DNA of 64,000 bases from Blastococcus mobilis (GTDB lineage: Bacteria; Actinomycetota; Actinomycetes; Mycobacteriales; Geodermatophilaceae). The stretch covers positions 310,001 to 374,000 of the forward strand of contig NZ_FZNO01000001.1 of NCBI RefSeq assembly GCF_900188025.1, read 5' to 3'. Positions 58,973 through 64,000 of the stretch are shown here, piece after piece; the first letter of the stretch is position 1, and the number at the start of each line of letters is the position of its first letter. The notes beneath the pieces are model-generated. The model was not told the origin of the DNA, made no database searches, and saw only the letters and a list, made by a program, of their open reading frames with translations. Position numbers and translations under genes: made by a program.

Positions 58973-60073
58973 ATGGCGTCGGCGACGCGCTCCCCACTGC
59001 ACTCCTGGACCACCGTCCTCCCGGCCGTGGCGTTGGTGGCGCTGGCCGCCACGTGGGGCCGGACGCTGCCCCCGGTGCTCGTCGTCGTGGTGGCGCTGGT
59101 CCTGGCCGGGGTGGTGCTCGCCGCGGTGCACCATGCCGAAGTGGTGGCCCATCGGGTCGGTGAGCCCTTCGGCTCCCTGGTGCTCGCGGTCGCGGTCACG
59201 GTCATCGAAGTGGCGCTCATCGTCACCCTGATGGTGTCCGGCGGGCCGGAGACGGCGTCCCTGGCGCGGGACACCGTCTTCGCGGCGGTGATGATCACGT
59301 GCAACGGCATCGTCGGGCTGTCGTTGCTGCTGGGCGCCCTGCGCTACGGGTTGGCCGTCTTCAACGCCGAAGGCAGCGGGGCGGCGCTGGCCACCGTCAC
59401 GACCGTCGCCACGCTGAGCCTGGTGCTCCCGACCTTCACCACCAGCCGCCCGGGCCCGCAGTTCTCCCCGGCGCAGCTGGCCTTCGCCGCGGTCGCCTCA
59501 CTCGTGCTGTACGCGGCCTTCGTCCTCACCCAGACGGTTCGCCACCGCGACTTCTTCCTGCCCGTGCCCACGCCGGGGACGGTCGACTCGCCGGAGGAGC
59601 ACGCCGATCCCCCCACGGGTCGAGCGACGGCCGCCAGCCTGCTTCTGCTGCTGATCGCGCTGGTCGGCGTCGTCGGGCTGGCGAAGGTGGAGTCGCCGGC
59701 CATCGAGGCCGGTGTCGCTGCGGTGGGCTTCCCCCCGTCGTTCGTCGGTGTCGTCATCGCCCTGCTGGTCCTGCTGCCCGAGACGCTCGCCGCAGGGCGG
59801 GCCGCGCTGCGCAACCGCCTGCAGATCAGCCTGAACCTGGCCTTCGGCTCGGCGGTGGCCAGCATCGGCCTGACCATCCCCGCCATCGCCATCGCGTCCA
59901 TCTGGCTGGAAGGCCCCCTGCTGCTGGGACTCGGGTCCACGCAGATGGTCCTGCTGGCAGTCACGGTCGTCGTCGCTGCTCTGACCGTGGTGCCGGGCCG
60001 CGCGACCCGGCTGCAGGGCGTCGTGCACCTGGTACTGCTGGCCGGCTTCCTCTTCCTGGCCGTCAGCCCCTGA
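58973..60073 (+). CDS. Calcium:proton antiporter (ChaA type)
   Basis: 366 residues, eleven helices. GEPFGSLVLAVAVTVIEVAL and LVLLPETLAAGRAALRNRLQ, each carrying a conserved membrane Glu, are the two alpha-repeat segments of the CaCA family; the central hydrophilic loop has PEEHADPP. ATG 58973 is used; GTG 58964 in frame could be a leaderless start. Divergent from the GDPD gene. Confidence 0.9.
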   Translation: MASATRSPLHSWTTVLPAVALVALAATWGRTLPPVLVVVVALVLAGVVLAAVHHAEVVAHRVGEPFGSLVLAVAVTVIEVALIVTLMVSGGPETASLARDTVFAAVMITCNGIVGLSLLLGALRYGLAVFNAEGSGAALATVTTVATLSLVLPTFTTSRPGPQFSPAQLAFAAVASLVLYAAFVLTQTVRHRDFFLPVPTPGTVDSPEEHADPPTGRATAASLLLLLIALVGVVGLAKVESPAIEAGVAAVGFPPSFVGVVIALLVLLPETLAAGRAALRNRLQISLNLAFGSAVASIGLTIPAIAIASIWLEGPLLLGLGSTQMVLLAVTVVVAALTVVPGRATRLQGVVHLVLLAGFLFLAVSP

Positions 60074-60253
60074 CCCGGGTCAGGGGGCGCCGACGGAGGT
60101 GGGCGGGGCCCGCGCGACCCGCATCAGGGTGGCCGCCGCACACCGGCCGCCGGCTGGGCCCGGACGGGTCGCCTGCGGTGGTCAGCATCACCGCCGAGAC
60201 CGGTGCCCGGCCGGTGGGATGTGAGACCGTAGGCGTGAGTCCACGATGAGACT

Positions 60254-60296
60254 CCCGGACGAGCAGCGCCGTACCCGGACAGCGACAAGACGGCGT
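60254..60296 (+). promoter_or_regulatory. Guanidine-III riboswitch
   Basis: The DNA matches the published guanidine-III aptamer almost base for base: CCGGACGAG, GCGCCGTACCCGG, then GACAAGACGGCG. P1 forms between CCGG (60255-60258) and CCGG (60275-60278), P2 between GCGCCGT (60266-60272) and ACGGCG (60290-60295), giving the H-type pseudoknot. The AGGAG site of the SMR gene begins only six bases after it, so guanidine binding would free or block ribosome access. Confidence 0.9.
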
Positions 60297-60311
60297 CTCC
60301 AGGAGACACCC

Positions 60312-60626
60312 GTGTACTGGCTCGTGCTCATCATCTCCGGCGTCCTCGAAGCCGTGTGGGCGACCGCGCTCAGCAAGTCCGAGGGCCTCACCCGCTTGGC
60401 GCCGACCGTCGTCTTCCTGACCGCCCTGGCCGCCAGCATGGCCGGCCTCGCCTACGCGATGCGTGGCCTCCCGGTCGGCACTGCCTACGCCGTCTGGGTG
60501 GGCATCGGCGCCGCTCTGACCGCCGGCTACGCCATGTGGTCCGGACAGGAGCCGGTGTCGGTGTTGCGGGTGTTCCTGCTCCTGGGCATCGTCGGCTGCG
60601 TCATCGGCCTCAAGGTCACGCACTGA
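60312..60626 (+). CDS. gdx: SMR-family guanidinium exporter (Gdx/SugE type)
   Basis: 104 residues, four membrane helices. WLVLIISGVLEAVWATALSK holds the essential Glu of SMR transporters (about residue 13), with the Gdx-type KSEG after it; GTAYAVWVGIGAALTAGYAM is the second signature. Works as an antiparallel dimer exchanging guanidinium for protons. GTG 60312 has AGGAG seven bases upstream. The riboswitch in front makes guanidinium, not quaternary ammonium, the likely substrate. Confidence 0.93.
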   Translation: MYWLVLIISGVLEAVWATALSKSEGLTRLAPTVVFLTALAASMAGLAYAMRGLPVGTAYAVWVGIGAALTAGYAMWSGQEPVSVLRVFLLLGIVGCVIGLKVTH

Positions 60627-60791
60627 CGCACCGGGCACGTCCGGCACGACCAGCTCCTGGCGCGAGCAGCGGTCGGCACGAGCACCCCCTGGCAGTCGAG
60701 GCCACCATGGCAGCCACGTCGGCGGGAGCCGCACGTGACCAGCCGTCCCGAGAACGCCTGCACGCCGGCGACCTCGGCGAGGCGAGGCGGT

Positions 60792-61853
60792 TCACTGCGC
60801 GGATTCGCGCCCATCGCCCGGGGGTGGGCACTCGCCGCCGGCAGGCGGCGCAGCGGACGGAGCCCGGCCGAACAGTGCGGCCAGCGCCGCGTCGGAAGCG
60901 GCCAGCGCGGTCCGGTCGAAGGTGCTGCTGGAGGCGACCAGCTCGGCGGCCCCGGTGCGGTCGAGCAGCTCGGCGAGCCGGTGCTCCACCTGGGCCGGGG
61001 TGCCGGCGATCGCCGCTGCCGCGGTCTGCTCGAGGTACTGCTGCTGGCGGGGGGTGCGGGCGGCGGCCCGGATGGCGGCCACCGGCTCCAGCGCCGGGAA
61101 CACCCCGGTGGTGCGGGCCTGGGCCATCGCCCACGCCTCGGGCAGCAGCAGGTCAGCGGCCTCCGCGGCGGTGTCGGCGACCAGCACGTCGAGGCTGATC
61201 GCCACCCGCGGCTCCGGCTGCTGCGCGGAGGGCCGGAAGGCGCGTCGGTAGCCGGCCAGCGCCTCCAGTCCCGCCTCCGGGTCGCCGGCCACCCCCAGCA
61301 GCGGGCCGCCGAGGATGACCGGCAGCCCCAGCTCGGCCGCGACCTGCAGGCCGTGCCCCGTGGCCAGCACGTGCAGCGGCACCGCGCCGACCGGCTGCGG
61401 GTGCACGGTGGTCTCCGCCGTCCCGGTCAGGAACCCGCGCAGTTCGGCGAGGTCGGCGGCGAAGTCCCGGTCGGTCTCCCGCAGCGCCCGACGCACCGGC
61501 GGTGTGAAGCCGGGGGAGCGGCCCAGCCCCAGGTCGACCCGGCCGGGGGCGAAGGCGGACAGCGTGGCGAACTGCTCGGCGACCACCAGTGGCTGGTGGT
61601 GCGGCAGCATCACGCCGGCCGAGCCGAGCCGGATGGTCGTCGTCCGGCCGGCGATGGCGGCCAGCAGCACCGCCGGGGCAGCGCCCGCGACTCCGGGCAC
61701 CCCGTGGTGCTCGGCGACCCAGAACCGGCCGAACCCGAGCTGTTCGGCGTGGGCCGCGCGCGCGACGGTGCCGCTGAGCGCCGCGGCGTCGGGTTCGCCC
61801 AGCCGGGTGCGGGACCGGTCCAGCAGGGAGAGCCGCAGCTCCACGTCGACCAC
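60792..61853 (-). CDS. Luciferase-like (LLM) flavin-dependent oxidoreductase
   Basis: 353 residues, TIM barrel. LGFGRFWVAEHHGVPGVAG, IRLGSAGVMLPHHQPLVVAE and PGRVDLGLGRSPGF are the standard blocks of MsnO8-type LLM oxidoreductases, which use FMNH2 or F420. GTG 61853 has GGAG seven bases upstream. The substrate is unknown. Confidence 0.9.
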   Translation of the reverse strand: MVDVELRLSLLDRSRTRLGEPDAAALSGTVARAAHAEQLGFGRFWVAEHHGVPGVAGAAPAVLLAAIAGRTTTIRLGSAGVMLPHHQPLVVAEQFATLSAFAPGRVDLGLGRSPGFTPPVRRALRETDRDFAADLAELRGFLTGTAETTVHPQPVGAVPLHVLATGHGLQVAAELGLPVILGGPLLGVAGDPEAGLEALAGYRRAFRPSAQQPEPRVAISLDVLVADTAAEAADLLLPEAWAMAQARTTGVFPALEPVAAIRAAARTPRQQQYLEQTAAAAIAGTPAQVEHRLAELLDRTGAAELVASSSTFDRTALAASDAALAALFGRAPSAAPPAGGECPPPGDGRESAQ

Positions 61854-62948: not shown

Positions 62949-64000
62949 TCAGTCGTCCTGGGACTCCAGGATCTGCTGGATGTGCGCCAGAGCTGTCGCC
63001 AGTTCGCGGAAGCTGGTGCTCAGCGGCGAGAGGCCGACTCGAAGACCGCGGGCCGGCCGGAAGTCCGGGATGATGCCCCGACGCCACAGCTCGTCGACGA
63101 CCGACTTCATCGCGTCGTGCTCGAGGGTGACGTGCCCCGCCCGGTGCTCGGCGTCGCGAGGCGAGGCGACGACGACCCCGAGCGGGGCGAGGACCTTGTC
63201 GGCGACCGCGATCGCGTAGTCGGTGAGCAGGACCGACTTGTTCCGGATGGCCGGCATGCCGGCCCGCTCGATCAGCGCCAGCATGTCCTCGATCGGGATC
63301 ATCGACAGGATCGGCGGGGTGCCGCTGAGGAAGCGCCGGATGCCCGACGCGGGGACGTAGTCCGGGCCCATGGCGAACGGCTCGGCGTGGCCCATCCAGC
63401 CCGTGATCGGCTGCGCCAGCTCCTCGTGGAGCCGCTGGGCGACGTAGCCGTAGGCGGGCGCGCCCGGTCCACCGTTGAGGAACTTGTAGCTGCAGCCCAC
63501 GGCGAGATCGACAGCGGCGGCGTCCAGTTGCACGTCGACGACGCCGGCGGAGTGGCAGAGGTCCCACAGCACGAGGGCGCCGGCCCGGTGCGCCGCGGCT
63601 GTGATCCCCGGCAGGTCGGCGATGTAGGCGGACTTGTAGGCCACGTGACTGAGCACGAGGAGCGCCGTCCGGTCGCCCAGCAGCGCGTCGACCTCGGCTC
63701 GCTGCACGCCTGTCGCCGGGTCGGGCTCGATCCACCGGATCGTCCGTCCGGTCTCCGCGGCGATCGAGGCGAGGATGAAGCGGTCGGTCGGGAAGTTCTC
63801 GGTGTCGGCGACGATCTCGGAGCGCTCGGGCCGGGCGTCGACCGCTGCGCGGATGAGCTTGTAGAGCATGACGGTGGTGGAGTCGCCCACGACCGTCTGC
63901 CCCGGGGAAGCCCCGAGGACCGCGCGCCCGATGAGGTCGCCCACGGCCGTCGGACGGTCCATCCAGGACTCGTCCCAGGCGCGGATCAGACGCTCGCCCC
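62949..64000 (-). CDS. kynU: Kynureninase (N-terminus beyond the window)
   Basis: About 350 C-terminal residues; the frame is open to the window edge, so the start lies outside. VGDSTTVMLYKLIRAAVDAR binds PLP phosphate, LVLWDLCHSAG has the PLP-ring Asp, and AVGCSYKFLNGGPGAPAYGY contains the Schiff-base Lys. Cleaves kynurenine to anthranilate and alanine in tryptophan breakdown. Confidence 0.92.
   Translation of the reverse strand, partial: GERLIRAWDESWMDRPTAVGDLIGRAVLGASPGQTVVGDSTTVMLYKLIRAAVDARPERSEIVADTENFPTDRFILASIAAETGRTIRWIEPDPATGVQRAEVDALLGDRTALLVLSHVAYKSAYIADLPGITAAAHRAGALVLWDLCHSAGVVDVQLDAAAVDLAVGCSYKFLNGGPGAPAYGYVAQRLHEELAQPITGWMGHAEPFAMGPDYVPASGIRRFLSGTPPILSMIPIEDMLALIERAGMPAIRNKSVLLTDYAIAVADKVLAPLGVVVASPRDAEHRAGHVTLEHDAMKSVVDELWRRGIIPDFRPARGLRVGLSPLSTSFRELATALAHIQQILESQDD

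Follow-up and report, generated by a model that had tools for sequence, protein, structure and literature searches.

The window is the whole stretch of DNA analysed here, 64,000 nucleotides (64 kb) of contig NZ_FZNO01000001.1 of Blastococcus mobilis, and coordinates count from its first letter. Near its end, on the forward strand, a match to Rfam family RF01763 (Guanidine-III) at 60234-60299 lies just before a gene for a small transporter of the SMR family. The match scores 58 bits where the cut-off is 36 (cmscan of the 64 kb, E 2.2e-9) and spans positions 1-67 of the 67-position model; RF01763 is the sole Rfam family above its gathering threshold anywhere in the window. The features of the locus are as follows.

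60225-60230, + strand: candidate -10 element GACCGT, preceded by TGTGA (predicted with a loose hexamer rule)
60237-60254, + strand: P1 hairpin, strands 60237-60241 and 60250-60254 (letters, RF01763 alignment and fold)
60255-60263, + strand: CCGGACGAG, comprising pseudoknot strand 1 (60255-60258) and then the third strand (RF01763 alignment)
60255-60258 and 60275-60278, + strand: pseudoknot CCGG/CCGG (letters and RF01763 alignment)
60266-60296, + strand: P2 hairpin, strands 60266-60272 and 60290-60296, the last pair being G-U (letters and alignment)
60290-60313, + strand: proposed alternative hairpin, ACGG 60290-60293 with CCGU 60310-60313 and GUCUC 60295-60299 with GAGAC 60303-60307 (folding)
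60301-60305, + strand: ribosome binding site AGGAG, 6 nt before the GTG (letters)
60312-60626, + strand: SMR transporter gene of the predicted Gdx (guanidinium exporter) subtype, 104 aa, GTG start (Pfam and solved relatives)

The stretches conserved in RF01763, CCCGGACGAG, CCGUACCCGG and CAGCGACAAGACGG, are all intact in the alignment, and the loop of P2 contains the second pseudoknot strand (60275-60278). In our mapping to the numbering of the Thermobifida fusca aptamer (PMC5696562), the ligand-contact bases C6 and G7 correspond to 60260 and 60261, and G17 to 60271. By that mapping the conserved core, the three contact bases and the CCGG/CCGG pseudoknot described in the available parts of PMC5696562 are all present at 60255-60289, so that the window shares with RF01763 and the T. 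fusca structure 5NWQ the P1 helix, the Rfam core, the pseudoknot, P2 and the pocket bases. It differs from T. fusca in two details reported in the same excerpts: bases 10 and 11 of the third strand are C and A instead of the G and U of the described triples, and AGGAG lies 4 nt past P2, as against 16 nt from the end of the aptamer to the ribosome binding site. The minimum free energy of the aptamer is ordinary (z -0.61; 54 of 200 shuffles are equally good), as computed by a folding method that is blind to pseudoknots, and the case is therefore carried by the covariance model and by conservation.

A sequence-only reading had called a guanidine-III riboswitch on this strand at 60254-60626 and had proposed a covariance-model search as a check. 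The class, strand and position are borne out by the full-length match, which clears its cut-off, and by the conserved core; the end of that range is the end of the stop codon (60626), and its start leaves out P1. Judged by its letters, the feature is an ordinary, well-formed member of a class whose link to SMR genes and spread among actinobacteria have already been published (PMC2864571 and PMC12186494, in the portions available). The class, also called ykkC-III, was first reported upstream of emrE-type genes, according to the accessible text of PMC2864571, and here likewise it precedes an SMR gene. No second copy of RF01763 was found in the genome (5.09 Mb in 88 contigs), and no guanidine-I riboswitch was found in it at E ≤ 0.001.

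The aptamer is followed by the ribosome binding site of the SMR gene, as the earlier reading had it, and the GTG start codon (60312-60314) lies 12 nt past the aptamer, a position that agrees with the start in relatives. The 104-residue product matches PF00893 (SMR) with 70.3 bits against a Pfam cut-off of 23.7. Its nearest solved chain is Gdx-Clo (6wk5, E 6.7e-20), followed by the near copy 8vxu (E 2.5e-19), and EmrE structures rank behind (E 7.3e-8 and weaker). The alignment to Gdx-Clo covers residues 1-103, and by our count on the translation E13, W16, S42, Y59 and W62 are all in place in the window protein and common to both. These residues are named for guanidinium binding and for the split between Gdx and Qac subtypes in the available sections of PMC7695847, which give W at position 16 for Gdx and Gly or Ala for Qac. 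Unlike Gdx-Clo, the window protein is actinobacterial, begins with GTG and has its transport predicted from sequence. The best score among the 21 NCBIfam models listed is that of the SugE model NF008512, at 91.3 bits; this is below the equivalog cut-off of 126, a curated naming threshold and no defining trait of Gdx. The residue tests support assignment of the gene to the Gdx type, with guanidinium export as its predicted function. It had been claimed that the aptamer fixes this function. Linkage and the Gdx residues together support export, but linkage alone cannot fix what a transporter carries; what the aptamer gives this SMR gene is a specific and testable predicted function.

The pairing of aptamer and exporter recurs in relatives. 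Among the matches listed, the 80 nearest SMR relatives include 76 with an aptamer just upstream; 68 of these calls rest on our motif pattern, and 8 of the remaining 12 were made by Rfam. The four left comprise one locus just under the cut-off of 36 (L091, 35.2 bits) and three with no RF01763 match at cut-off (L078, L096 and L123). At L091, from Gordonibacter, the pseudoknot strands in the segment before the SMR gene (1912-1978) are CCTG and CAGG instead of CCGG and CCGG; as the pairing is kept, this may be a divergent form of guanidine-III. The aptamer of Gordonia effusa (L093, 1904-1991; 46.6 bits) carries about 20 extra nucleotides between the second CCGG and GACAAGACGG.

Of 112 genomes searched in the family, 79 carry RF01763 at E ≤ 0.001, 78 of them with scores over the cut-off; in a draw of 396 genomes from the phylum the figures are 51 and 42. 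The window's own genome is counted in both sets, and both searches used stricter filters, under which weak matches are lost. When 25 family genomes were searched for both aptamer and protein, 15 had the aptamer (the window's own included), and in all 15 an SMR gene 66-99% identical to that of the window starts 9-17 nt after it. Among the ten family genomes without the aptamer, five had no SMR match, and the others had matches of 47% identity at best; half of the ten assemblies are less than 85% complete, and for two (G074 and G075) absence of the aptamer means absence from the family-wide list of matches. The window locus thus adds one case to an association of aptamer and exporter that its family often shows. 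In another genome of the same order (L032), a guanidine-I riboswitch (1279-1382, - strand) and a guanidine-III riboswitch (1501-1566, + strand) stand back to back, the + side leading to an agmatinase/guanidinase-like frame (1577-2728) and the - side to a sodium:solute-symporter-like frame starting at 1254, both named from their translations.

If the candidate -10 element GACCGT upstream of P1 is used, transcription would begin roughly where P1 does. Our loose rule, which favours NANNNT, puts the top-scoring hexamer 6-8 nt ahead of P1 in 87 of 107 leaders, a raw count, and by eye GTGA or GTGC stands before many of these hexamers. A strict consensus scan found no classical sigma-70 promoter in 60050-60800. 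No intrinsic terminator was found in the same interval either, which makes a platform acting by transcription termination unlikely.

We favour control of translation. The guanidine-III riboswitch would turn on synthesis of the Gdx-type SMR exporter when guanidinium is high, a reading to which we assign a probability of about 0.93; this figure covers the class, the gene and the ON-type control, and excludes the particular step by which the Shine-Dalgarno (SD) sequence may be hidden. Following published work on the class, guanidinium would bind and lock the pseudoknot and P2 triplex, upon which the ribosome binding site would be freed. According to the available parts of PMC5696562, G7, G17 and C6 hold the ligand within a pseudoknot that has a triple helix at P2; in the authors' view, competing structures are destabilised on binding and the ribosome binding site is thereby exposed, a step described there as "less well established".

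For this step we consider a hairpin in which, in the absence of ligand, 60290-60299 would be wholly or partly paired with 60303-60313. It would cover AGGAG and reach two bases into the GTG, and P2, once stabilised by ligand, would reclaim its 3' strand from it; we put this at somewhat under even odds. It had been suggested that the expression platform is no more than the short gap from P2 to AGGAG. That gap is indeed 4 nt, and in the present model the platform may extend further on both sides, the 3' strand of P2 pairing into the start codon.

In the window itself the signal for this alternative hairpin is modest. The segment 60290-60320 folds at -9.5 kcal/mol (z -0.96; 33 of 200 shuffles are equally good) and a shorter segment at -10.0 kcal/mol (z -1.65), and with the P2 strand removed the fold of the leader drops to -1.5 kcal/mol. 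When the window's P2 strand is paired with leaders as a duplex, 57% of leaders do as well as or better than its own. The free fold of 60236-60350 hides AGGAG (60303-60306 unpaired at 0.01-0.03), as a shared-strand model wants. With P1 and P2 imposed on the same segment and the pseudoknot strands held out, the coding region takes over as pairing partner and AGGAG remains mostly paired (60302-60306 unpaired at 0.02-0.15), and the fold thus gives no release of the SD sequence. In the window the inner SD hairpin can form alongside a P2 of five pairs, so that strict either-or switching is unsupported. The energies favour the P2 state, at -13.5 against -10.0, and over 108 leaders by a mean of -7.3 kcal/mol, with the alternative hairpin within 4 kcal/mol of the P2 state in 30 of the 108; all of these values are rough, the constraint being unenforced in some rows of the energy comparisons.

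The comparison across leaders was made on 140 loci, of which 116 fit the motif pattern, with the window as the 117th; 112 have a start codon, giving 108 distinct leaders. The 24 loci missed by the pattern were left out, and since 21 of them (8 + 13) have an RF01763 match at cut-off, the set is biased toward consensus-like sequences. The pattern hit at L078 (4 mismatches, on the other strand) is false and lies outside the 108, and at least four loci with an evidently wrong start codon (L033, L109, L122 and L125) were kept in the counts. Kinship and composition were partly controlled, a subset of 37 mutually dissimilar leaders being analysed alongside the full set.

Against dinucleotide shuffles, the stretch that begins with the 3' strand of P2 and ends at the start codon has a mean z of -1.02 (sem 0.14) in the 108 leaders, with z below -1 in 49% and about half above, and a mean of -1.36 (sem 0.25) in the 37. 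The corresponding means for controls are +0.35 for ORF starts, +0.19 for the part of the leader past P2 by itself and -0.01 (n=107) for sequence further upstream. When halves were swapped between loci, the observed mean was reached in 2, 1 and 12 of 5000 trials for sets of 108, 37 and 13 leaders, respectively. Shuffling just those nucleotides that separate the SD sequence from the start codon costs a mean of 1.41 kcal/mol (sem 0.27), the real leader beating the shuffle mean in only 68 of 108; for the dissimilar leaders the cost is 2.28 kcal/mol (sem 0.53), with 27 of 37 beating it. The P2 strand makes at least three pairs with the final 11 nt in 90 of 108 leaders, compared with 55 (sd 5) after shuffling, and in 32 of the 37, compared with 18 (sd 3). 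Some loci (L103, L108 and L140) have no such hairpin. In 83 of 108 leaders, 16-19 nt separate the end of the ACG motif and the start codon. GTC stands directly before the start codon in 49 of 108 leaders and in 41 of 890 control frames, an enrichment that is given little weight because the control frames were chosen mechanically and many may be spurious.

These comparisons make it conceivable, though in our estimate not quite an even bet, that the actinobacterial platform is a recurring hairpin between the P2 3' strand (GACGGC...) and the bases before the start, often GUC-AUG. One RNA strand would then serve both the ligand-bound aptamer and the SD-hiding form, a model we advance equally tentatively. 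Sherlock and Breaker 2017, reportedly the paper that defined guanidine-III, lies outside the literature searched; no hairpin between the P2 strand and the start codon was found in the available text of the papers within it, and no newness is claimed for one. If true, a shared-strand platform would supply the release of the ribosome binding site by ligand that the structural paper leaves less well established. Against it counts the in-line probing of Huang et al., read in the accessible parts of PMC5696562 as showing P1 and P2 paired both with and without guanidine.

The strongest competing account gives the aptamer its main effect through mRNA stability: with the transcript starting at P1, the pseudoknot, once bound by ligand, would sit at the 5' end and block scanning by RNase E, and hiding of the SD sequence would be secondary. 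Such protection is stated for guanidine-III in the available portion of a review that cites Richards and Belasco 2021 (PMC12186494), and it would suit both a 5' end at P1, as set by the candidate -10 element, and a fold in which the imposed aptamer leaves the SD sequence paired. It leaves unexplained the narrow spacing of the start codon (16-19 nt) and the SD hairpin signal across leaders, and we consider it unlikely as the main mode of action, while noting that it is compatible with ligand-induced translation of the exporter.

Less probable again is that the SD sequence is hidden by CUCC at the junction of the P1 3' strand and the pseudoknot (60252-60255). This motif is complementary to GGAG, and in a swap test of P1-strand:leader duplexes a value as low as the observed one came up in 14 of 1000 permutations; the corresponding signal for the P2 strand is stronger, however, at 1 of 1000. 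In the window neither of the two duplexes stands out: its P1 strand is served at least equally well by 77% of leaders, compared with the 57% given above for its P2 strand. Hiding by the P1 strand was rejected as weaker than hiding by the P2 strand across relatives.

A chance look-alike or a decayed, functionless aptamer, to which only the unremarkable folding energy lends itself, is extremely improbable given the score and E value of the match, the intact core, the presence of RF01763 in 79 of 112 family genomes and the linked exporter gene in 15 of 15 inspected.

The genome holds one other SMR match (L141), 43% identical over residues 1-102 and with F at position 16. It was considered as a second riboswitch target and rejected, as its locus has no Rfam match at the gathering threshold and position 16 is F instead of W. 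On inspection, its leader (1441-1500) is rich in palindromes and a TetR-like frame lies downstream; it looks like a repressor-controlled gene. Elsewhere in the window, a kynureninase-like gene occupies 62949-63998 on the - strand; its frame is cut by the window end, and it matches TIGR01814 with 207.6 bits, under the cut-off of 246.4.
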